Origin: Deefgea piscis
GTDB taxonomy: Bacteria > Pseudomonadota > Gammaproteobacteria > Burkholderiales > Chitinibacteraceae
Length of the DNA: 64,000 nt
Assembly (NCBI RefSeq): GCF_013284055.1
Contig: NZ_CP054143.1
Coordinates: 3,038,001-3,102,000 of the forward strand
Direction of reading: 5' to 3'
The position numbers and the translations under genes were made by a program. Positions 42,071-62,469 of this stretch are shown in pieces. The stretch's first letter is position 1; each line of letters begins with the position of its first letter. The notes under the pieces were generated by a model that saw only the letters and a program-made list of their open reading frames with translations, did no database searches and had not been told where the DNA came from.

Positions 42071-45000
42071 TTAGTTTAATTTTTTAACCTGTGGATCACG
42101 CATTGAACCGCTGATTTGATACTCAAACGAAACCAGCTCTCCCAAGGGATTTTGATCAAACAAGCGCTGCGCGGCAAAAGTCGCCAAACCCGCAATGGGA
42201 TTAATCGCCGCCACGCCCAAAGCCACTGCATCGCCCACTGCTGGAACGATACGCACTACGATGTCTTGCGTCCCAGCGACAAAATTGGCGTCGCCTTTAA
42301 AACGCACTTTGGCCGATGGCGCGTCAATCGTGAGGTTTTTAGTCTTAGCAACGCCCTGATTCATCGTGGCGTCCCCGGTGATTCGATCAAAGCCAAAGCC
42401 TTGTGAAATTAAATCTTCAAAATCGAGTTTTAAACGCCGTGGAATTGCTTGTAAATTCAGCACCGTTAAAAACCGTCCTGCGCCCGGATCAATTTTTAAA
42501 AACTGCCCCGCGCCCACATCAATCTTAAACTGACCTTGCATTGAATTGAGTTTGGGAGACCACGGTGGACCTTGCCATTCAACATTGCCGCCAAAATGCA
42601 GCGGCGCCATCGTCATCGCCTCTGGGTAGCCAAACCGAGTCAATAATCGCCCCAAATTGGCTGAAGTCAGTTGCACCTGCCCTTGAGTCAGATTTTTACC
42701 GTCTTTTTGCCGCCAGATTCCATTTAATGTTAAATCACCGTCGGTATTTTTTAACTGTAACTGCTCAATATTGAGCGCCGCGCCTTGCGGTACCGCCAAT
42801 ACATTTAACCGACCCAATTCAATCTGCTCATAGCGTAAATCAGCCACATCCAAATTCATTTGCGGCCAAGCACTTGGCTCGTCTAATGCATTATTTTGAA
42901 CCGGCCCAGTTAAACCCATCACGTGCGTCGGGGCTGCCTGCGACTCCATTGATAATGGCAACCATAATTTACTCAGTTTGGCATTCAGTTGCCGACTACC
43001 GGCCTGCCAGTTGATTCGGCCCGCCAACTCTTTACTCTCTAAATCAACCTGCCAATTTTGTGCTGCAGGCTTAGCGCTGATGGTGACGCCATTAAATAAG
43101 CGCCCCCATGCATTCACCTGCTTAAAACCCAGCTCTTTCACGGTAATTGCCGGCAGGCTATTGCTAGCGGCATTTGCCGAGCCACTCGATGGTCGCGGCA
43201 TTTTCTCAACAAAATCGAGCCAATTTTCAACATCTAGCGCTGGCCAATGCCCAGTCACTAGGACGCCACTTTCTGGTAACGCCCTCACTTCACTCCCTAG
43301 ACCAAGCACCATTTGCACTTTCGGTTCGGCGCTAGGGCTCGATTGCTTACTTTGCATTTTGCCGAATAATAATTGGCCTAAAGAAAACGTTAATTGATGC
43401 TGCAAAGCCCCACCGCTGGCTTTGACATTCAGCGCCCGGCTTTGCGCGGCATTTTTGCCCAAGGGCGCTGGCAGATTGACTTTAGCGCCCTGCAAATCAC
43501 TACTCACCGACAGATCAAATTGCTTAGGTGCGACTTTAAGCTGCGCTTGATACTGACTTTGCCCCGAAATCTGCGCTTGCAGTGCCGGCAAATAGGCGGT
43601 CGCAATCTGCCCCATTGCTGCGTCGCCGGTTAAATTCAATACCAAAGCGCCATTCACATCGTTCGAGCCCAATAATTTAACCGTACCGCCAAGCGCTTTG
43701 GCCTGAGCATAGGGCACTTTAATCGCCGATTCGGAAAACTCGACCTCGCCAGTCGCGGCATTGAGTACCGGAATCGCACCGCCAAAGCGCAATTGATTTT
43801 GCTTAAAGCGATAACGACCACTCACTTTGGTATTTTCAATATTGATCATGGGCATATCGAGTTTTAAATCCAGCGTGCCATCGCCTTCGGCCTCCAAAGT
43901 ATCTAAAAACCCTTGTGTGCTCTCCTTAACCGGACTATTGGCAACAAACGACAAAAAGTCATGCGTACGACCATTCACTTGACCGCTCACCAAGATATGC
44001 TGATCTTGTTCTAAATTCGGAATTTCAACCTGCACGCCACTTAAACGGGTTTTTGAGATTTCGCCAGCCGATGCATTAATTTTCATCGCCAAGCCTTCAA
44101 AAGCCAAATCACCATTGATATGGTCAATCATTGGCCAGCCTGGCACATAGTTCAGCGTCACATCCGCCGCTTTAGCATAAATTGCAAATTGGCCACGCGC
44201 CTCATCCGCCGAACCTTTATGATAAGGAAATCCCGCAACATCCCCCTGCCAAGTAATTCGCCCCTGACTGGCATCCCCTGCCAACAAAGCTTGTTTTAAC
44301 CAATCAAGGACATCATCGCCCAAAATTCGTGGCAAATAGCGATACGCCTGATTGGCCGACAGATGCGTAATATCTCCCGACACTTTGACCTTACCCAATC
44401 CTGAACTTGGCCCTTCATAGTGACCATCTAATTTCAACTGAATGGCTGGATTCATCATTGAGAAATTCAGCAAATCAAAGCGCCAGTTTTGCGCCTTCTT
44501 TTGCCATTCGATGCGGGTACTTAGCTCGTTGAGCAGCATGGGATCGACAAATTGTGCCGGGTAGTTAAACTCGGTATTACGTCCCCGTACATCAAGTCGT
44601 CCACCTTGTTCTTGCCACTGCCCCGTCAAATCAACCGGACCTAGATTCAAATCTGCATGGCGCAGCACCAGCGCTTGCGCATCAAAACGTCCTGCGAATG
44701 CCTTGGCGGCAGATAATGGGCCTTGCCAACTAAGCTCTGCCTCTTGAATCAGCCCGCCCACCTCAGCGGGGGCACTGCTCAATTGCGGCATCCTTGCTCT
44801 AGCCAAATAAGGCTTGAGTAACGGCAAATACGCATTTAAACCCGCAAGTTGCCACTGCTTTAACTGTAGAGCCGCCTCGGTCGTCGATTCGGTCTTGGTT
44901 TGGCTATATGTCAGATTACAAGAGGTACACAACACCCCAGACGGCGAGGCAATCTGCCGACCATTAATTTTTAAGGTTTTTCCCTTGGGGGTATCAGACC

Positions 45001-50316: not shown

Positions 50317-52122
50317 TCACGCCAATAAACGCAGCGCCAAACCCGATTGCCGCGTAATGCCTTTGCGGCTGGCGCTGGTAATAATGCTTTCCTCACCCCA
50401 CAAGCTCACTTGCTGGCGCGCACGCGTAATCGCGGTATAAACCAGCTCCCGACTTAAAGCGCTCACGCTGCCATCACTTGGGCTGGGCAACAGCAACAAC
50501 ACATGCGCAAACTCCGAGCCTTGTGATTTATGCACCGTCATTGCAAACGCGGTTTCCACCGAGGGCAAGCGCGCAGGCGCAACTTTGCGTGTACCGCCAT
50601 TGCTATCGGGAAAATGCACCCATAACTTGCCGGCGTCATCCATCAAAGTCAGACCAATATCGCCGTTATATAGTGCCAAATCGTATAGATTTTGCGGCAC
50701 CAATACCGGTCGGCCGGCATACCAAACTTGGTCATTCATTCTTAAGCCTTGTTTGACCAATTGCGCCTCAATCAAATGATTCACACGCGACACACTGGCG
50801 GCGCCTTGTCGCACCGGGCTCAATACTCGAAACGCATCAAACGCCTTAAACACCTCGCTTGGCGCGGCATTGGCCGCCACTGCCGCAAAAAATGCTGCGT
50901 ATCCCGCCAGCAATGGCGCAGTTAAATCCTGACCGCTGGCAGCTGGATTGCTGGCATACCAAAGCAATGGCGCATCACTATTGACTGGGCTGGCAGCGGC
51001 CTGCAATAGCGTACTGATTGTGCGTAAATCGCCGCCATTAATCGCCTTGGCCAAAGCGCCAATCGCGCCAGAAAACCGATAGCTTTTATGCAACGTCAAC
51101 ACATGCTCGCCCAGTGCCGATGCGGAAAAGCTTGGCTCAACCACTTGGCCAGTTAAGCGCGATAATTTGGCAGCAAAGTCAGGCGAAAACCCACTTTCGG
51201 CACATAAATCCCCCATCACTGCGCCCGCTTCAACCGAAGCGAGCTGATCTTTATCGCCCAATAAAATCAGCCGAGCGTGTGGCGGCAAAGCATCGACCAA
51301 TTTACTCATCAAGGCCAAATCGATCATCGACGCTTCGTCCAGCACCAGCACATCGAGCACTAAAGGGCGCGCGGCATGATGGCGAAACTGCACTGAATTA
51401 AATTGGCTACCGAGCAAACGATGCAAAGTCGTGGCTTGATCGGGGATTTGCGCTGCCAACTCCGCGCTTAACAAGCCTTTTGCGGCTAAATCTTGCTTGC
51501 CCTGACTAATCGCCGCCTGCATGCGCATGGCCGCCTTACCTGTCGGCGCCGCCAGCGCAATATTGAGCACGCGATCGCTACTGATTTGCAGCAAGGTTAA
51601 TAATTTAATCAACGTGGTGGTTTTTCCAGTCCCGGGGCCACCGCTGACAATACTCAGTCGTTGATGCAGCGCAGCGGTCACGGCGATTTTTTGCCAATCG
51701 GGGTTTTCATGGCTGCCGGCAAAAAAAGTCTGTAAATGTGCCGCCAGTCGAGCTTCATCTGGCGCTGGCGGCGCATCAAGCGCCATGGCGCGCAATTGCA
51801 AGGCCAATCGCGACTCATACGCGTGATAACGCGCTAAATACAGCCGCTGATGCGAGGCAATTAAGGGCATAAAGTCCCCAGCCTCGCCCACCAAACCACT
51901 GGCTAGCCATGCCGCCAAATCGGTTTGCGCCGGAATATCCACACAGACATCGCCGCGCTCGCTGGCTTTAGCCAATTGTGCGGCAAGCCCCAATAAATCA
52001 GCGGGGGCGTTGGGGTTTTTACGCCGCAATAAATCCAGCAGCACGCTAGAAAAATCGATTTTTTCTACTGCGCTGGGATTCATCGCCGTCAATGGCGTGC
52101 TGGTTTCTACGGTATTACTCAT
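50317..52122 (-). CDS. recD: Exodeoxyribonuclease V subunit alpha (RecD)
   Basis: RecD is the 5'-3' helicase motor of RecBCD. The 601-residue SF1B protein has the Walker A motif VSGGPGTGKTTTLIK, motif II VLVLDEASMIDLALMSK, LILLGDKDQLASVEAGAVMG and C-terminal TVHKSQGSEFAHVLLLLP with YTAITRARQQ. The ATG overlaps the recB stop by 4 nt, so it is the last gene of recC-recB-recD. Confidence 0.96.
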   Translation of the reverse strand: MSNTVETSTPLTAMNPSAVEKIDFSSVLLDLLRRKNPNAPADLLGLAAQLAKASERGDVCVDIPAQTDLAAWLASGLVGEAGDFMPLIASHQRLYLARYHAYESRLALQLRAMALDAPPAPDEARLAAHLQTFFAGSHENPDWQKIAVTAALHQRLSIVSGGPGTGKTTTLIKLLTLLQISSDRVLNIALAAPTGKAAMRMQAAISQGKQDLAAKGLLSAELAAQIPDQATTLHRLLGSQFNSVQFRHHAARPLVLDVLVLDEASMIDLALMSKLVDALPPHARLILLGDKDQLASVEAGAVMGDLCAESGFSPDFAAKLSRLTGQVVEPSFSASALGEHVLTLHKSYRFSGAIGALAKAINGGDLRTISTLLQAAASPVNSDAPLLWYASNPAASGQDLTAPLLAGYAAFFAAVAANAAPSEVFKAFDAFRVLSPVRQGAASVSRVNHLIEAQLVKQGLRMNDQVWYAGRPVLVPQNLYDLALYNGDIGLTLMDDAGKLWVHFPDSNGGTRKVAPARLPSVETAFAMTVHKSQGSEFAHVLLLLPSPSDGSVSALSRELVYTAITRARQQVSLWGEESIITSASRKGITRQSGLALRLLA

Positions 52123-55100
52123 TGCGCCACTCCTTCACCTAGGGCACGATTGAGCGCCTCAATGAGTTTTAAAGGGGGTTTATCGTGCCAAACGCCACAA
52201 TTAGCGACTTCTGGCGACATACCTCGAATAAATAAATACAACACCCCACCAAAATCACGCGCATAGTCATAGCGCTCTCCCAAGCGCGCCAACATATGCC
52301 GATGCCAAGCGCAGCTATACAATAAATACTGTAAGTAATAATGCGAGTCGCTCATCACGTCACGCAATGCGGCAGGATCGTAATCGCTCAAGCGATCGCC
52401 CAAAAAGTTGGATTTGTAATCGGCAATAAAATACTGGCCTTGCCAGAAAAAAACCAAATCGACAAAACCATTTAAATAACCGACGAATTTTTCTGGCTTT
52501 AGCCGCTGGGCAGCGGCAATAAAGCGCGGCTCAACGCCAAACTCAGGCTGGGCCAATACGCGGCAAAAGGCGGCGATATCCACCGACTTACACCCCAATA
52601 AGAACTGCCATTCATTTAAGCGCTGGCGATGCGTTAATTGATTTAACCGCAACACACCCGTCGCCAGCTCAATGGGCGCGGCGAGCACGGCCAGCAACCA
52701 ATCGGCGACCTGAGGTGCGGCATCGAGCGCCAAGGCCAAGCCGGATTTTTGCATCGCTTGCGTCACCGTTTGCGCCAAGACTGCGGCATCGACTCGCGTA
52801 AAGTCAGTGTGCTCAAACACCGAATGCAATGTGGTACCGGCCCGACTACCGCGCATAAATCGAAAGCGCATTTCATCCGACAACGCTTCGCTATCCAAGC
52901 GAGGCACTTGCACCCCATCAGCGTCGTAATCCGTCCCCGCTTCAGCCACTGCATCGCTGGCGTAACTGCGCGTGAGCGAAGTAAAGCTGGCTAAGCGCCA
53001 CGGCGCAGCCAAACTCCACGGCGCGTAATCAAAGCGCTTAGAGCGCGCAGCCAATTGCAACTCAGGTAGTGCACGATCCGTGCCGGCATATCGCGTCCAC
53101 TCAGGTAGGCCACTCACCGACACGCGCGCATCTAAGCGCTTAAATGCGTCACTGAGCAAAGGCAGCGTGAGCGATTTGAGGTGTTCGCTAATGGCTTGAC
53201 CTGATTCCGTGCGCAATAAATGCGTTAACGGCGCATTTTTTAGTCCCGCCTGCGACTGCCAAGCGAGCTTTTCAAACGCCGGATACGCTAAATACAGCCG
53301 ATGCTTGGCGCGAGTGACGGCCACATACAACAGACGAATCTGCTCGGCATACGCTTCGTGCTCAGCTTGCGCCAGATGCGCTTCAAGCTCAGACGTGCCC
53401 ACATCAATCTGCAACGCATGCGCCGCGCTTGGTTGGTGAAACGACACCCATTGCGGGTTACGCACCAATTCCCCCTTGCCTTTCCATGCAAATGGGCAAA
53501 ACACAATCGGATATTCCAAGCCTTTGGACGCATGAATCGTCACCAAGCGCACACGATCAGCGTCGCTTTCTAAACGCATTTGCTGGCTTTCTGCGCCCTG
53601 ATTGGGCTCAGCAATTTGCCGCTCGAGCCACGCCAGCAATAAGGCCGGATTGGGGCGAGATCTGGATTCATGCTGCACCAGCTCCGCCACATGCAGTAAA
53701 TTGGTCAAGCGCCGCTCGCCACCGTCTTGCTTTAATACACGGCTGGCAATATCGGCCTCGACCAACCAGCGCCGAAACATCGGCATAAAGCCAAACTTGC
53801 GCCATTCATCGCGCCAACTTTGTAGGTTTTCGACTTCGTCTTGCCACGCTGCATCATCCAATTGCAGCGCCAATAATTGCGCCACGCTAATGCCCATCAC
53901 CGAGCTCACCAAGGCTTTACGCAGCAAACTGGTTTGCGCTGGCGCTTCAATCGCCGCCAGCATCGCACACAAGCCTTGCGCCTCACTCGAGGCAAAAACA
54001 CTTTCTCGGGTTTGCATCACCGCCGCCACGCCGCGCTCCGCCAGCGCATGGCGCATGGCGTGCGCTTGCCGATGGCTCGGCACTAAAACCGCAATATCTT
54101 TTGGACTTAAAGCGTTCCCACTTAGCGTGGCCTTGCCTTGGCTGGCGGCATTCAGTAAACCAGCAATTTCATCGGCCGTTGCCGCCAATAGCATTTTTTC
54201 CGCCGTGTCGGGATTACCACCATCAAACACAAAAGCGTGCACCGCGGCGCGATCATCGGCGCATTGCCATTTAGATTCACCGCTTTGCTTGGCGGCAATG
54301 GTGGGATGACTAATTTGCCGTTCAACAAAAGCATCTTTGGGCGCAAATAGCGCGTTCACAAATTCAACAATCGGCGCGTCAGAGCGAAAATTAGTCTCAA
54401 TCGAATAACACGCTTTAGCCTGCCCTCGCGCGCCCAAATAGGCATACACGTCGGCACCGCGAAAAGCGTAAATCGCTTGCTTCGGGTCGCCCACCATAAA
54501 AAACGGCGGCTCGCTACCGTCGCTTAAAGCATGACCAAACAAACGATCAATAATTTTAAATTGCAACGGATCGGTATCTTGAAACTCATCGACTAAGGCC
54601 GCGCGATATTTTTGATTGACCTTATTGGCTAAGTTTTGCGCCCGCACCGTATCGTCCAGTGCCGCAGCCAAGCAAGTAATGCTGTCATCAAACGACATTT
54701 TGCCGCTGTGCGCTTTGCGAAGCGCCAATTGCTCACGCACATAGCGCGCAAAATCCAAGCGCCAGTATTTGAGTTGCAAGGCCAAATCCGCGGCCATACT
54801 GTCGGCATTGGCCAATAAAGCCTCGGCGGCGGCAAAAAACTCATGTTGCGGCACCACCGGTTTAAATTCTTTTTTAGTCATTTTGAGCAAATGACTTTGG
54901 GTGAATTTTTCCCAGTCTTTACATAAAGACACGCTGGGCGTTGGGCTTTGCAATAAACGATTCACCGCTGCTAGCCCATCCTGCCATTTTTCGTTCGTCA
55001 GCTTATACGTGCCAGAAAAAATGCCGCCGGCTTGGGCATTGAGTAACAACGCGGCGATTTCGTCTTGATCCCACCAATACTGGCATTGTCGCCATTGCTC

Positions 55101-55901
55101 AGCATATTGCGCGCGGCGCTCATTCCGATACGTGGCCGATGGCAAATCAGGCAAAGGCAAAAAATACCCCGGATCAAGGCTTTTTACTTGACCAGCCCAT
55201 TGCTCTAAATACGGCACATCGATTTTTTGCTCGCGCAAATACGCCACCCACGCCATATCAGCCGCATACACCTGACTGCGCCAAAAATCATGGGTAATTT
55301 CAGCCAGTAACTCGCTTTCGTCCTCAAGCAATTGCCGATCAAAATCAAAGCCCGCCTCAAACGCTTGCTCCGTTAATAAGCGCTGGCAAAAACTATGAAT
55401 CGTCGAAATCGCGGCGCAATCGAGCGTCGCGAGCGCCAAGCGCAGTTGCCGCAATAAAGGATCGGGGTCCAACCCTTCGGCGATGACCCGCTCCCACACC
55501 TCGGCACAGAATGGCTCTGGCGCGCCGCCCACCATCACCGGCGTTTGCTCAACAAAGGTTTGCGTCAATTGCGCCAAGCGTAAACGAATCCGATCTTTGA
55601 GTTCGGCCGTTGCCGCCTTGGTAAACGTCACCACCAAGATACTCTCGGGGAGTAATCCTTTGGCTGCGTTATATGCTGGCTCGTCGGGAGCAATACCCGC
55701 GCCTAAAATCAAACGCGCATACAGGCCGGTGATATTAAAGGTTTTTCCGGTACCGGCCGAAGCTTCGATCAATACTCGGCCACCGAGTGCCACATCGTGC
55801 ACCATTAACGGCGCAAATTCAGGCAGGCCCGACTTGTCGGCGGCAGTACCCTCTACCACGCTGGCGTGCGCCATCGATCCATCCAATTGGCGTTCAGTCA
55901 T
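52119..55901 (-). CDS. recB: Exodeoxyribonuclease V subunit beta (RecB)
   Basis: RecB supplies the 3'-5' helicase and the sole nuclease domain of RecBCD. The 1260-residue protein starts with LIEASAGTGKTFNITGLYAR (Walker A), followed by LVVTFTKAATAELKDR, ALVDEFQDTDPLQFKIID (motif II), VTIHASKGLEYPIVF and YVAVTRAKHRLY. The C-terminal nuclease domain has FIADYKSNFLG (catalytic Asp and Lys near 1160). The ATG at 55901 with AAGGAG 7 nt upstream is preferred to GTG 55904, and it overlaps the recC stop. Confidence 0.97.
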   Translation of the reverse strand: MTERQLDGSMAHASVVEGTAADKSGLPEFAPLMVHDVALGGRVLIEASAGTGKTFNITGLYARLILGAGIAPDEPAYNAAKGLLPESILVVTFTKAATAELKDRIRLRLAQLTQTFVEQTPVMVGGAPEPFCAEVWERVIAEGLDPDPLLRQLRLALATLDCAAISTIHSFCQRLLTEQAFEAGFDFDRQLLEDESELLAEITHDFWRSQVYAADMAWVAYLREQKIDVPYLEQWAGQVKSLDPGYFLPLPDLPSATYRNERRAQYAEQWRQCQYWWDQDEIAALLLNAQAGGIFSGTYKLTNEKWQDGLAAVNRLLQSPTPSVSLCKDWEKFTQSHLLKMTKKEFKPVVPQHEFFAAAEALLANADSMAADLALQLKYWRLDFARYVREQLALRKAHSGKMSFDDSITCLAAALDDTVRAQNLANKVNQKYRAALVDEFQDTDPLQFKIIDRLFGHALSDGSEPPFFMVGDPKQAIYAFRGADVYAYLGARGQAKACYSIETNFRSDAPIVEFVNALFAPKDAFVERQISHPTIAAKQSGESKWQCADDRAAVHAFVFDGGNPDTAEKMLLAATADEIAGLLNAASQGKATLSGNALSPKDIAVLVPSHRQAHAMRHALAERGVAAVMQTRESVFASSEAQGLCAMLAAIEAPAQTSLLRKALVSSVMGISVAQLLALQLDDAAWQDEVENLQSWRDEWRKFGFMPMFRRWLVEADIASRVLKQDGGERRLTNLLHVAELVQHESRSRPNPALLLAWLERQIAEPNQGAESQQMRLESDADRVRLVTIHASKGLEYPIVFCPFAWKGKGELVRNPQWVSFHQPSAAHALQIDVGTSELEAHLAQAEHEAYAEQIRLLYVAVTRAKHRLYLAYPAFEKLAWQSQAGLKNAPLTHLLRTESGQAISEHLKSLTLPLLSDAFKRLDARVSVSGLPEWTRYAGTDRALPELQLAARSKRFDYAPWSLAAPWRLASFTSLTRSYASDAVAEAGTDYDADGVQVPRLDSEALSDEMRFRFMRGSRAGTTLHSVFEHTDFTRVDAAVLAQTVTQAMQKSGLALALDAAPQVADWLLAVLAAPIELATGVLRLNQLTHRQRLNEWQFLLGCKSVDIAAFCRVLAQPEFGVEPRFIAAAQRLKPEKFVGYLNGFVDLVFFWQGQYFIADYKSNFLGDRLSDYDPAALRDVMSDSHYYLQYLLYSCAWHRHMLARLGERYDYARDFGGVLYLFIRGMSPEVANCGVWHDKPPLKLIEALNRALGEGVAQ

Positions 55902-58900
55902 CACGCAGCTCCTTGTTCGGCTAACAAGCGGTTTAAATCATGATGCAAGGTTCGCTCCTCGACTGCAGCCAACATCGGCAACACAATTCGCGTCGCCCAC
56001 GCCGTAAATTGCACGCCGTTGGCACTATCGATTTGCAGCGGATCTTGCGGCCATAGCAATTGATTTTGTACTTCTAGCCATTCGCCATCGCGGTTAAAGC
56101 TCGGCAACCAACGCTTGATCGCCGCTGCCCAACGTAAGGCTTGGGTGTCTTCATCCTCGACCGTATCGCTTGGCAGCGCCTTACCCCACGCCAAAGCACT
56201 GTGCGGGAAAAACGGCAATGGCGCGGCCATTGCGGCTTGATATAAAGCCAAAATATCACTCAAATACGCTGTCGCTTGTTCCGGTGCAATCGGCGAGCAG
56301 TACAAAACACGCTCAGGCGACAGCCAACGGGTCACAGTTTGCATGGCGCTGGGCTGCATGGCGCACAGTAGTAAATGCTCAACCCACGCCCGAAACACAT
56401 CGCGCGGATAAATTTGGCTTTTTAAAACAATGCGCCCATCGGCATAACACGCATCTAACCAACCGGTAATTTGCACATCAGATGGTGATCGCGACCAAGA
56501 CGGCGACAAAGTCATTTGCACCATTTGCGCGGGCAACTGATCACTGCATTGATAGCGCGGCAAAGCGTCCAGCAGCGCACAAGCGGCAAACAGCTGCTCA
56601 TCCACCAGCATTTCACCCGGCACACCCAAAGGGGTATTACCTCGCGCAAAAGCCAGATCATGCGCTTCAAGCCCATACTTAAGGCCAAGATCGCGCACGG
56701 CATTATCGCGAAAATCTTTTAAATCAAACGCTTCATCGTCCTCTAAGCCGGCATCATTGGCACTAGGCTGAAAATGCAAATTCGCCCGATGCCGCAAAAA
56801 GTAAGCCGCTGGTTTGGCCAAACATTGCGCCAATTCATCCCAGCGCAAACTATTGGGCATGGCAAATGGCGGATATTGCTCGGCGGCGGCTAAATTGCTC
56901 GCGACTGCATCGTTCAGCGCATCGCTTTGCATCTGCTCACTCAATACCGCCTCACCCTCGTCTGCGCTCTTAGTAACGCTCGACACTCGCCCCATGGCCG
57001 CCAATGCAATTTGTTCGGCAGCACGGCACCACAGCGGATTAAACGACGCAATGGCATTTGCATTGTTTTCAGGGGTATGGCCAACAAAGTTTTGTAGGCT
57101 AAAGGGCTGCAAGGGATACTCAAGGGTTAAATGCTGCAATAAATTGGCTCGTCGCACTTCGATACTTGCGTCGATATCGCCCTCAAGGAAAAACCCTTGC
57201 GCCACACAATCGAGCACATCGCTCACCAATACCGAAGGCGGAAAATGCGCATCGTCTTTTAAGCTGCGCCCAACCCACGACAAATAGAGTTTTTCTCGTG
57301 CTGCCAATATCAAATCTAAAAACAAATACCGATCATCCAAGCGGCGCGAACGGTCGCCTAAGCGCGGATGCTGAGCAATTAAATCAAATCCCGCCGTGGG
57401 CGGATTGCGTGGAAAATCATTTTCATTCAAACCCAACACCGCCACCACCCGAAACGGCAAGCCACGCATCGGCACCATGGTGCAAAACGTCACCCCGCGC
57501 GACATAAAGCCCGAGCCACGGCTACTGTTTTCAAAGCGATGTTGCAACCAATCGCACACCACTTCGCGCGGCACGGGCTCAGTTAAACCGGCCAATTGCG
57601 CTTCATCGGCCAAATCCGCTAGCGTCGTGCGTATGGCTTCAGCCAGTTTGAGTTCGGCCTCGTCATGTTCGTCAAATAAAATAAAATTTTCGAGTAGCAA
57701 TAAAGCTGCATCGCGCCACTCCGGCAAAGTGCGCGCAACACTGAGCGCCGCCCGCCATTGCCCTACGGCGGTAATAAATGTGGTTAATTTGGCCAATAAG
57801 CTCGCTTGCGAGCCCTCCAAATCATCCCACGGCGCCAGCGCGGCTAATTCAGAAGTGTCCTCGCCCCACAGCGGTACTGCGTCACCGGCCAATGCATTGG
57901 GCAAGGCTAAACCCAACAGCAATCGATCTAAACCCAACTGCCAGGTATTGGCCGCGCCCATATCGGACAAATCAAACTCAGCCCGGTGCGCCGCATCTAA
58001 GCCCCAACGGATGCCGACTGCCGCAATCCAATGCCTTAGGGTCAATAGCTGATCGCTACTGATATCAAAGCGCGCCGCCACTTGCGGCGTTTCGAGTAAG
58101 CCATACATTTCATCGGCTTTGCAGCGGCTTTCCGGCAATTGCAAGAGCTGCATCAACACATCAACCGCCGGGCATTCTTGTTGCGTGGTTAAGTCGGCGA
58201 TATTAAACGGAATATTGGGTGCGCCAGAGGCTTTGGCATCGCCAAAAACCGCCTCAATCAGCGGGGCATACGGCCCCATATCGGGCAGTAACACGGCAAT
58301 TTCGGAGGCCAATAAACTGTCGTCATTGACCAGCATGGCGGCAATTTCATCATGCAAGATTTCAACTTCACGCATCGCGCTATGTGCGTTATGAAACGTT
58401 AGTGAGCGATCGTTCTTTGCGACTACTTGAGCGTTTAATACATCACGATTAAGTAAATTGAGCACATCCGATTGCAGCGTTTGCAATAGGCTTGGCGTGG
58501 CAATATGCTCGAGTGGATCATAAAACAACCACTGCTCACCGCCACCACTCCACGGGAAAGCCTCCGTTACCGCGCGATAAAAATCACGCCCCGCCTTACC
58601 CATCGAGGCCAATAAAGGATGACCAATATCGAGGTAGAGTGATTCTTGCTTGCGGTCTAACTCGCGGCGCGCAATCACTTGGGCACTGACAATCGCCCCC
58701 CATTCTTCGCGGCAAGGATTAAGCAAAAATAAATTCACGTCGATGTGCTCAGCCAAAGCGCCCAGCACGTCGATATACGCCGGCGGCATGCCGGCAATAC
58801 CAAACACGGTAATGCGCTCAGGCAAACGACTTGGCCCATCGTTTTGCCACGCATTAAATAGCTGCACAAACATATCGGCACGATGTGGCATGGCGCCAAA

Positions 58901-59437
58901 ATCGCCGTCGATACTGGCTTTCACTTCACGCCACAATGTGGCTTGCCACGCTTCATCGGGCCCCAAGCCCACTAACTGACCCGCTTCCCACGCTGCAATC
59001 CAATGGCTGCGAAACACCAAATACTGATCGAACACGTCGGCCAATTTACCCGCCAACGCCATTTGCCGCCGCGCGTCCCCCTCACTCAAATACGCCGCCA
59101 CAATCGGGCTAGCAGCGCGAGCGCCGGATGTTGGCAACACCCCAAATAAGCGCCAAGCCAGCGGGCTAGCGCTATATGGCGAATCAGCTTGTAAATGCGG
59201 TAATGCGTCTTTGAGCAAAGACCAGACAAAGCTGGCGGGCAGTTGAAAGTCTATCCCCGCGCAAATCCCAACGCGATCGGCCAATTTAAACCGCAGCCAG
59301 CGCTCCATACCTTTACTGGAAACAATGATTTTTTCGCTGGCAAACGGATCGCTCAAAGCGACGCCATACAGCGCTTGCAATAATTCGAACAGATTTTCGA
59401 GGCGATTGGACTGGTAAATATGCAGGCGGCTGGACAT
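55901..59437 (-). CDS. recC: Exodeoxyribonuclease V subunit gamma (RecC)
   Basis: RecC recognises Chi in RecBCD and has a dead helicase/nuclease fold. The 1178-residue protein starts LHIYQSNRLENLFELL and has KIIVSSKGMERWLRF, the PFNIADLTTQQECPAVDVLMQLL-type stretch (in pieces: IPFNIADLT and AVDVLMQLLQLP), VTFCTMVPMRGLPFRVVAVLGLNENDFPR (pieces: VTFCTMVPMRGLPF and LGLNENDFPR) and DRSRRLDDRYLFLDLILAAR. It heads recC-recB-recD, without the ptrA gene found between recC and recB in E. coli. Confidence 0.96.
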   Translation of the reverse strand: MSSRLHIYQSNRLENLFELLQALYGVALSDPFASEKIIVSSKGMERWLRFKLADRVGICAGIDFQLPASFVWSLLKDALPHLQADSPYSASPLAWRLFGVLPTSGARAASPIVAAYLSEGDARRQMALAGKLADVFDQYLVFRSHWIAAWEAGQLVGLGPDEAWQATLWREVKASIDGDFGAMPHRADMFVQLFNAWQNDGPSRLPERITVFGIAGMPPAYIDVLGALAEHIDVNLFLLNPCREEWGAIVSAQVIARRELDRKQESLYLDIGHPLLASMGKAGRDFYRAVTEAFPWSGGGEQWLFYDPLEHIATPSLLQTLQSDVLNLLNRDVLNAQVVAKNDRSLTFHNAHSAMREVEILHDEIAAMLVNDDSLLASEIAVLLPDMGPYAPLIEAVFGDAKASGAPNIPFNIADLTTQQECPAVDVLMQLLQLPESRCKADEMYGLLETPQVAARFDISSDQLLTLRHWIAAVGIRWGLDAAHRAEFDLSDMGAANTWQLGLDRLLLGLALPNALAGDAVPLWGEDTSELAALAPWDDLEGSQASLLAKLTTFITAVGQWRAALSVARTLPEWRDAALLLLENFILFDEHDEAELKLAEAIRTTLADLADEAQLAGLTEPVPREVVCDWLQHRFENSSRGSGFMSRGVTFCTMVPMRGLPFRVVAVLGLNENDFPRNPPTAGFDLIAQHPRLGDRSRRLDDRYLFLDLILAAREKLYLSWVGRSLKDDAHFPPSVLVSDVLDCVAQGFFLEGDIDASIEVRRANLLQHLTLEYPLQPFSLQNFVGHTPENNANAIASFNPLWCRAAEQIALAAMGRVSSVTKSADEGEAVLSEQMQSDALNDAVASNLAAAEQYPPFAMPNSLRWDELAQCLAKPAAYFLRHRANLHFQPSANDAGLEDDEAFDLKDFRDNAVRDLGLKYGLEAHDLAFARGNTPLGVPGEMLVDEQLFAACALLDALPRYQCSDQLPAQMVQMTLSPSWSRSPSDVQITGWLDACYADGRIVLKSQIYPRDVFRAWVEHLLLCAMQPSAMQTVTRWLSPERVLYCSPIAPEQATAYLSDILALYQAAMAAPLPFFPHSALAWGKALPSDTVEDEDTQALRWAAAIKRWLPSFNRDGEWLEVQNQLLWPQDPLQIDSANGVQFTAWATRIVLPMLAAVEERTLHHDLNRLLAEQGAA

Positions 59438-59576
59438 GCGGGCACCGAAGTAAGAAGCAAGACTTATTCTACCTTGTTAAGCTGACTTCAGTTGCCAGAA
59501 AAGGCGCACAAAGTAGGTTTTGAACCGCAATCGGCACGTCACGCTGAGCCAAAATTAAGGCCAGCACCAGCCAGAC

Positions 59577-59683
59577 GCGATTTTAGGGCATTGCATGCTT
59601 GGGCCGTTTTAGGCCATTCCCCTACTTGGGTTGTTTTAAGCCATTACCATGACTGGGGCGATTTAGGCCATTGCCATGCTGGG
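59577..59683. repeat. Degenerate 27-bp tandem repeat, four copies
   Basis: Four head-to-tail copies of about 27 bp (59577-59603, 59604-59630, 59631-59657, 59658-59683), sharing TTTTAGGCCATT and TTGGG/CTGGG blocks. A more degenerate fifth copy may lie at 59550-59576. The last copy contains the TAA stop of the DUF1631 gene (59663-59665, minus strand), whose last codons MAMA are encoded by the repeat. The units have no spacers, so this is not a CRISPR array. Confidence 0.8.
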
Positions 59684-62290
59684 CAATGCCGTTTCGGTAC
59701 TGGCCACTTGCTCGGCCGAGGCCAATAATTCGCTCATTGCCCGATCAAAGAGTGGTGCTTGCTCTAAAAAGCGCACGCGATCACGCGCAAACAAACGGCG
59801 AAACGCCCGCAAGCTCAATACTGCCGGCGCGTCTTGATCAGGCCAAGTCAAGACAATCGCATCGGGATGATTCGCTTGCCAGCTCAACTGGGCAATACGC
59901 GCGGTGCCAGCAAAATTAACCTCCACCGCCACGCCATTACTTAAACACGCCGTAAAATCTTCATCTACGCTGTCGATTTCAACTGCAGTTTGCGGCCCTA
60001 ATTCCGACTCTATCAATTGATCAATCAGATTGAGATTAACTTCTAAAGCATCGATCTCAGCTTGAATAAACAGTGGATTTAACGTGACCACGACCTCATT
60101 CTCGGTGATTTCAGTGCTATGCACCGCATCCAAAAACGGCGCAAAAGCCTCGTGCATCACTGACAAAGGCGGCGGCACAGCACTCAGCACCTGACTTGAG
60201 CCTGAGCGCATCGCCAAACGATGCGCGTCAACCAAGTGCAGATTTAATTCTTGTAATTGTTCGGCCGTCCAATTGAGCGTTAACACCCCTTCGCGCAAAG
60301 TGGCGATCATGGTTGGAATCAAACCCAATAAAATTTTGCATTCATCACGATCAACTTTTGGCGCCAAGCTCCAAATTAAATCGGGCACCAATAAGCGATA
60401 CTGCGTTGCTTTATGCGGCGCTTCGCGCCCCGCTAACTCAATCACTCGCGCCCAAGTGCTGACCAAAAAATCATACAAATACGGCTCAATGGTATAGGGC
60501 GATAAAGCGTCGGAAATCATCGCGGTAATACGCGCAAAATGTAATGTGCGCTGTTTGGCAGAATCCAAAACTTGCGTGGCGCTACTGGCCATTTTTTCAC
60601 AATGCGCTAATTCATTGGCGACCCACGCATCCAGCGCATCGAGCATTTGCACAAACAAGGCCAGATCTTCGTTTTCATCGGCCAAAATAATCGCCACAAT
60701 GCGGCAAATTTCGGTATTGACTCGGACGGCACTTTCACTGTTTTGCTGCATCCCCAGAGAGATCGAGCCAATTCGGTTAACCAACATGCGCGCCGGGTGG
60801 GTTTTTCTGGCAAATAGATTTGGATCTTGCAGCGCGATTTTTAATACCAAAAACTGCAAACGCCCTAGCTGCGCCCGAACTTCGGCCGGCACTTTATCGT
60901 CACGCAAAATAAATTCAAACAGCATGGCCACCACATCAATGGTCATTGCTTCATTGACATCGCTGGTGCTGGCACCCAATTGTTGGCGCTGCTCTAAAAT
61001 CAAATTGCGTAGCTTGCCATCGCCATTCCACATGGCTTCTGCCGTTGGCGTGGCGACTTCAATCAGACTTTGCAGTGATTGGCTCAGCGGCGCACTCACC
61101 GAACGCAGTTCCAGCGATGCGGCGTCATCCCACACCGGGGCTTGCCCCTGCGCACCTTGCTGCAGACTATGCCCACTAAAAAATTGCTGAATGCTGCGAC
61201 CCACCTGCCCAATATGACTCAGCCATGACGGTGCCCGCACCATGCTGGCGCGTGCCTCGTTACTCGACGCCATCAACGGCTCTGCCGCCGAATCCATCAA
61301 GCCAGAACCGCCAGAACCGCCAGACCCCATGCCTGCCACAGCATTCGGTACACTCGCTGGCGCAGCCCCTTGCAATGCAGCCTGCGATGCAGACGGTCTA
61401 GATTGCACAAAATCCAAAAATTGATCTTCCGAGCGTGCGCCCCACGGTGCTGCGGCTACCGAGCCCGCCGATGAACCCGTGGATGAGCCCGCCAAACGTG
61501 GGGTTGACGCGGCACGCGGCGACTCACTGCCTCGCGATGCCGGTTCGCTGTATTGCGCGTCGGGCGTTAATGCCGAGGGCGATTCATCCGGTAGATCAAG
61601 CAAATTGCCGGCCGCGATGGCCGCTGGCTCACTTTGTTTTCTGACCTTCAACTGCAATTGGGCGGCAATCCCATGCTGGGCCAGTAGCTGATTTAATGCC
61701 TCATACAGCGGCGCGATATGCGGGCACATTGATGTGGTGAGTTGCGCTAATAGCACAGGAATTAATTCATTATCGCTGGCGGTTTCGGCCACCGTTTCTT
61801 CTAAAGCATTGGCAATACTGCGCGAGATAATATAAGTACGAAACGGGTTTTCACGTTCTTTAATCACGTCTTGCTCAAGCAATAATGCAATACGAATATT
61901 TAAATCACGAATACCTTCTTCGGCCTCTTGCCGAAAACGCGTGGTAATTTGGTCAATATGCAATTCTTCTTCAAACGACGCCGATTCCACCAAGGACAAT
62001 GTGGCATTAAGCCCCTCGGTAAAGGACGGACGAAAATGGTTGTAAGCCGTTTGAAAACTGCGATGCAATAATTGCTCAACTTGACGCGATAGCTGCTGCT
62101 CCAACTTTTGATCGTGATTCATAATCAATTGCCGCGCAGCGAGTAAACGGCGTTGCTCAAGCATTGAGGTGGCCCGATCGGCCTGATTAAATAATTGCCC
62201 TGTCGAATGCGCCAGCACCATCGGCATTCTTTGATTAAATTCAGCCAAAAACACCGAGCGCGTCGCAATGAGTAAATCATTTCTATCCAT
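59663..62290 (-). CDS. DUF1631-family protein
   Basis: Large cytoplasmic protein of 875 residues in the DUF1631 family, uncharacterised and often annotated as putative thymidine phosphorylase without support. It is helical at both ends. About 225-380 form a low-complexity Ser/Ala/Gly/Pro-rich linker, including GMGSGGSGGSGLMDSAAEP. The N-terminal part contains LEQRRLLAARQLIMNHDQKLE and the C-terminal part VSFRRLF-like FRRLFARDRVRFLEQAPLFD. The ATG at 62290 has GAGGG about 9 nt upstream and is preferred over GTG 62305. Its stop lies in a tandem repeat. Confidence 0.86.
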   Translation of the reverse strand: MDRNDLLIATRSVFLAEFNQRMPMVLAHSTGQLFNQADRATSMLEQRRLLAARQLIMNHDQKLEQQLSRQVEQLLHRSFQTAYNHFRPSFTEGLNATLSLVESASFEEELHIDQITTRFRQEAEEGIRDLNIRIALLLEQDVIKERENPFRTYIISRSIANALEETVAETASDNELIPVLLAQLTTSMCPHIAPLYEALNQLLAQHGIAAQLQLKVRKQSEPAAIAAGNLLDLPDESPSALTPDAQYSEPASRGSESPRAASTPRLAGSSTGSSAGSVAAAPWGARSEDQFLDFVQSRPSASQAALQGAAPASVPNAVAGMGSGGSGGSGLMDSAAEPLMASSNEARASMVRAPSWLSHIGQVGRSIQQFFSGHSLQQGAQGQAPVWDDAASLELRSVSAPLSQSLQSLIEVATPTAEAMWNGDGKLRNLILEQRQQLGASTSDVNEAMTIDVVAMLFEFILRDDKVPAEVRAQLGRLQFLVLKIALQDPNLFARKTHPARMLVNRIGSISLGMQQNSESAVRVNTEICRIVAIILADENEDLALFVQMLDALDAWVANELAHCEKMASSATQVLDSAKQRTLHFARITAMISDALSPYTIEPYLYDFLVSTWARVIELAGREAPHKATQYRLLVPDLIWSLAPKVDRDECKILLGLIPTMIATLREGVLTLNWTAEQLQELNLHLVDAHRLAMRSGSSQVLSAVPPPLSVMHEAFAPFLDAVHSTEITENEVVVTLNPLFIQAEIDALEVNLNLIDQLIESELGPQTAVEIDSVDEDFTACLSNGVAVEVNFAGTARIAQLSWQANHPDAIVLTWPDQDAPAVLSLRAFRRLFARDRVRFLEQAPLFDRAMSELLASAEQVASTETALPSMAMA

Positions 62291-62469
62291 CTGGCACACC
62301 CTCACACATCGAATTAAGTCGGCTTAGCCGAAATTGCCTTGCGCTAAGTTGAGCAACATCACTCAACTCAAACTGCATAAAAACCGGATGATAACTGACA
62401 ATAGCCCGCGCTGCTTGCGACAGATTCGGTACAATCTAGCTATCCGAATGGCAGCAAGGCTCACTCTCA

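Follow-up and report, generated by a model that had tools for sequence, protein, structure and literature searches.

A tandem repeat at the 3′ end of a Deefgea piscis gene contains the stop codon of that gene, which raises the question of whether the repeated copies matter to the encoded protein, to the gene that follows or to neither. The window, meaning the whole 64,000-nucleotide stretch analysed here, comes from a genome of 3.43 Mb (G000 in the comparisons below). On its minus strand the gene, which encodes a DUF1631 protein, is followed by a 225-bp spacer, a recC-like gene, a recB-like gene and a RecD-like open reading frame (ORF):

59663 to 62305, minus strand: DUF1631 gene, 880 aa from the listed GTG (Pfam PF07793.16, E 8.4e-90)
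55901 to 59437, minus strand: recC-like gene (Pfam Exonuc_V_gamma and RecC_C), the first gene after the array
52119 to 55904, minus strand: recB-like gene, following the recC-like gene
50317 to 52122, minus strand: RecD-like ORF of 601 aa, named by eye, after the recB-like gene

A degenerate 27-bp array across the end of the DUF1631 gene

The array consists of four head-to-tail units of 27, 27, 27 and 26 bp on the minus strand at window positions 59577-59683. It starts with the last six codons and the TAA of the DUF1631 gene and continues into the spacer before recC, the units running in gene direction from 59683 to 59657, 59656 to 59630, 59629 to 59603 and 59602 to 59577:

59657 to 59683, minus strand: unit 1, the last six DUF1631 codons (PSMAMA), the TAA stop and 6 bp
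59630 to 59656, minus strand: unit 2, a non-coding copy with an in-register TAA
59603 to 59629, minus strand: unit 3, a non-coding copy with an in-register TAA
59577 to 59602, minus strand: unit 4, non-coding, 26 bp with a 1-bp deletion (gap position set by hand), its TAA out of register

The first-pass annotation had placed the stop codon and last residues of the protein in the terminal unit, and the TAA at 59663-59665 lies with PSMAMA in the unit that comes first when the array is read in the direction of the gene. Its count of four, perhaps five, units held for four; the candidate fifth, 59550-59576, is off the consensus by eye, and the TRF call ends at 59581. The further in-register TAA codons that it described are present in units 2 and 3, with 8 codons between successive stops of units 1 to 3. 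They do not extend to unit 4, which its 1-bp deletion puts out of frame, and the following in-frame stop lies 17 codons further along.

The tandem array is real and not a product of chance. TRF called it at 59581-59684 with a period of 27, 3.9 copies, 73% matches, 2% indels and a score of 103; the best score in 100 simulated 64-kb sequences was 73, the simulations being first-order Markov sequences that preserve first-order composition only. The array was the top TRF row in the window, first of 3 rows at a score of at least 50 and of 18 at a score of at least 30. Self-matching at a lag of 27 reached 41 of 54 positions; across lags of 10-60, none of 20 simulations exceeded 33.

Pairwise identity between units is 18-21 of 26-27 positions (69-78%), so the array is degenerate and its copies are not near-identical. 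This level of divergence suggests that the array is probably old. Despite divergence elsewhere, an 11-bp core, AATG[G/C]C[C/T]TAAA, is present in all four units of the window.

Gene ends and spacers in related Deefgea species

We compared the locus with those of six other Deefgea (G001-G006), one genome representing each species. The DUF1631 gene was present in all seven genomes, and DNA matching the array region was found in four, the window's own included; there was no match to it in other genera (43 genomes of the family, 11 genera). G003, G004 and G005 encode DUF1631 proteins 89-93% identical to that of the window, and their genes likewise end in ALP[S/N]MAMA-TAA. In the distant G006, G001 and G002 the protein is 64%, 64% and 63-70% identical (the last in two pieces), the C-terminus is different, and the array region has no DNA match. 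A DUF1631 gene tree of six genomes (G002 left out) joined G000 with G004 (support 1.000), then G005 (0.964) and then G003. The first-pass annotation had named, as what would refute it, identical copy number among strains and homologues that end before the repeat and lack similar units. For the homologues the outcome is mixed: the distant species lack a similar unit after the stop, whereas the close ones carry one.

Copy number differs between these lineages. Measured from the stop unit, inclusive, to the next shared sequence, the array region spans 115 bp in the window, 67 bp in G004, 86 bp in G005 and 89 bp in G003, with 6-bp repeats making up parts of the last two; the whole DUF1631-recC spacer is 225 bp in G000, 178 bp in G004, 212 bp in G005 and 197 bp in G003. 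Among the four close species TRF called a 27-bp array in G000 only, missing a two-copy case in G003 in which 22 of 27 positions are identical. In the window, G003, G004 and G005 alike, alignment with the unit consensus placed at least one diverged copy behind the stop, at a score that 0 of 500 mononucleotide shuffles reached in each; the aligner returns the best copy only, hence at least one. The consensus was taken by hand from the window, and its CCCAAG is similar to the 6-bp repeats of G003-G005, which helps those alignments.

The G005 spacer (locus L004) contains two perfect microsatellites, (CCAAGC)x5 and (CGTGC)x5.4, which are unrelated to the array and which TRF reported as a 6-bp repeat of 5.0 copies (score 60) and a 5-bp repeat of 5.4 copies (score 54). 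These two strong repeats show that products of slippage are tolerated in the DUF1631-recC spacer. Weaker TRF repeats were a 6-bp repeat in the G003 spacer (score 37) and a 14-bp repeat of 2.1 copies across the stop in G006 (locus L006, score 44).

The ALP[S/N]MAMA-TAA ending is common to all four closely related species, each represented by one genome, despite their differing array regions. These observations agree with the earlier suggestion that a change in copy number affects the 3′ spacer only. The accompanying suggestion, that it could alter the C-terminus, found no support, as all four C-termini are the same and the downstream stops have not been preserved.

The copies beyond the stop are poorly conserved. 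In the four-species alignment 127 of 147 columns of the coding tail of the gene and 48 of the 90 columns past the array were invariant; for the post-stop array columns the figure was 5 of 84, which depends on gap placement, as gapped columns were counted as variable and the array is hard to align. The downstream in-register stops are not kept either, and there is no conserved back-up. From the real stop, the distance to the following stop in the same frame is 8 codons in G000, 7 in G004, 16 in G005 and 48 in G003. In G005 this second stop is the TAA of the unit; in G004 the TAA of the unit is out of frame (by eye) and the stop comes from other sequence; in G003 the TAA reads CAA, giving 48 codons of read-through.

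These positions bear on two explanations in which the stops themselves would matter. Back-up stop codons under selection, catching read-through, might be expected from the spacing of the TAAs in units 2 and 3, 8 codons apart, and from the in-frame unit TAA of G005; with the nearest stop of G004 drawn from other sequence and that of G003 so distant, we consider such selection highly improbable. The second explanation is a C-terminal switch, in which loss of a stop or a change in copy number would add 9-residue blocks to the DUF1631 protein. A 27-bp unit preserves the frame, and units 2 and 3 offer in-register TAA codons. However, the four close species, the window's included, share one C-terminus, the unit stop is altered in G003 and out of frame in G004, and unit 4 of the window is itself frame-shifted, which together make a switch extremely improbable.

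The spacer upstream of recC

Between the array and recC lies a further feature:

59438 to 59504, minus strand: conserved block before recC, containing TAGAAT; across four Deefgea species 65 of its 67 alignment columns do not vary

Within this block, GTCAG and GGTAGAAT are kept in all seven Deefgea. The block is probably the recC promoter and leader. A scan of 59400-59800 for promoter consensus sequences found no minus-strand site and one promoter-like site on the plus strand, at 59701-59729.

As a spacer of variable copy number, the units could in principle tune the recC, recB and recD-like genes that follow, their number changing the distance, the structure of the mRNA or the binding of proteins ahead of the recC promoter. 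The recC-like gene comes next on that strand, 225 bp away, a highly conserved block separates it from the array, and a correlative precedent exists in the repeats before fpg1 of Mycobacterium tuberculosis (PMC2734929). However, the conserved block does not include the array, the array sequence is scrambled from one species to the next, three other Deefgea have no match to the array region, and the region does not fold unusually. Its folding energy did not exceed that of shuffled sequences (z -1.02 and -0.33 for the two strands), 36 of 200 and 77 of 200 shuffles folding at least as well. We regard tuning of this kind as very unlikely, and the more specific proposal that the stop-containing units are a slippage-driven knob setting the expression of recC, and hence of RecBCD, as even less likely. 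Nothing found here points to an effect of the array on recC.

Minus-strand terminator-like matches in 59400-59800 numbered 5, compared with 0.7 in shuffles, and two overlapping matches lie just past the array at 59559-59574. This excess would favour a role for the repeats in ending the DUF1631 transcript, as a series of transcription terminators or RNA hairpins. Against such a role, none of the 5 matches falls within a unit, the region folds no more stably than expected from shuffles and the tail after the 59559 hairpin is altered in relatives, so that we hold this explanation to be highly doubtful. The units also lack the GC-rich hairpin and T run of an intrinsic terminator array (0 of 5 sites in units, fold z -1.02).

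Other candidate functions were rejected. A search of Rfam with 59400-59750 gave no match near threshold, the only match up to an E value of 1 being to a nematode snoRNA (59719-59742, E 0.92), whose 16.9 bits fall below the gathering threshold of 50. A dispersed repeat family of the REP or MIRU type was set aside because the unit was found at one genome locus only: searched with at most 3 mismatches, a 24-bp pattern of the unit matched the genome 3 times, always in the array, and a 281-bp query had a single match in its own genome, also in the array, although strongly diverged copies could be missed by these searches. As a binding site, the core motif AATGSCYTAAA was likewise discarded, with 15 sites in the genome, 4 of them in the array, and 6 for a reversed-pattern control.

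Origin of the array and comparison with other repeats

We consider it very probable that the array is a neutral, degenerate minisatellite born by slippage over the 3′ end of the gene, and in that sense ordinary. A segment of approximately 27 bp over the last DUF1631 codons and the stop would have been tandemly duplicated in the ancestor of the four Deefgea species, by replication slippage or unequal recombination, of which we infer the former, to yield one coding unit and one non-coding unit downstream. In the lineage of the window the array may then have grown to four units, which diverged by substitutions and the 1-bp deletion. The simplest reading would start from a common ancestor with two units, the number rising to four in the window's lineage, the alternative being loss in the relatives. 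Because the first unit retains its TAA, the protein stays unchanged and copies accumulate behind the stop; because the copied segment contains a stop, the in-register stops arise as a by-product. Retention of the core in four units, where 4 of its 15 genome sites lie, counts weakly against neutrality, but there are only four units and the core holds the coding end of unit 1.

Like bacterial minisatellites and VNTR loci, the array has head-to-tail units of tens of base pairs, lies in or next to a gene and varies in copy number between lineages. It differs in that its units are 69-78% identical and the array is probably old, and in that the comparison is across species, with one genome each. MIRU units of mycobacteria can overlap gene ends. 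According to PMC2734929, MIRU are scattered in 41 places; the Deefgea array occupies one locus with no dispersed family, by which it is set apart. The same source describes the rnc-fpg1 repeats of M. tuberculosis (ETR-F, or VNTR3239), which start 40 bp past the stop, are exact and vary between strains, and whose length correlates with expression of the downstream repair gene (PMC2734929). At both loci tandem repeats occupy a spacer that leads from one gene to a DNA-repair gene on the same strand, whereas in Deefgea the first unit holds the stop and the copies have diverged.

The significance of the array is little. It provides a clear, small example of a stop-spanning duplication that moves gene-end sequence into the spacer while leaving the protein unchanged, the array taking other forms in sister species, and it could serve as a Deefgea strain-typing marker if copy number varies within species.

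We also surveyed the ends of DUF1631 orthologues at 59 loci, of which 57 were evaluable (L038 and L052, with no C-terminus, were dropped), representing 46 distinct gene ends. Stop-spanning arrays with a TRF score of at least 30 were found at 2 of the 57 loci, namely L002 in the window's genome (score 110) and the 14-bp repeat of L006, a lower bound given that TRF misses the two-copy case in G003. Other weak TRF rows, with scores of 32-49, were found at L032, L051/L059, L054, L067 and L079. Simulated sequence yielded 179 TRF rows with a score of at least 40 in 6.4 Mb, and we therefore treat these rows, L006 and the G003 repeat as weak; the repeats in G003 and G006 could be due to chance.

Repeats of other kinds occur in the window. 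A 30-bp repeat of 1.9 copies with 82% matches at 42466-42523 encodes a repeated KID-x-GAG-x-FL peptide; when checked for a stop-spanning pattern it proved to lie inside a long minus-strand ORF of 1291 aa, with no stop there. The DUF1631 gene itself contains 9-bp tandem repeats at 60626-60644 (2.1 copies) and 61301-61324 (2.7 copies), the latter within a Gly/Ser-rich stretch. The same genome encodes a second, distant DUF1631 relative, L015 (G000:C1:2930997-2931941), with 28% protein identity.
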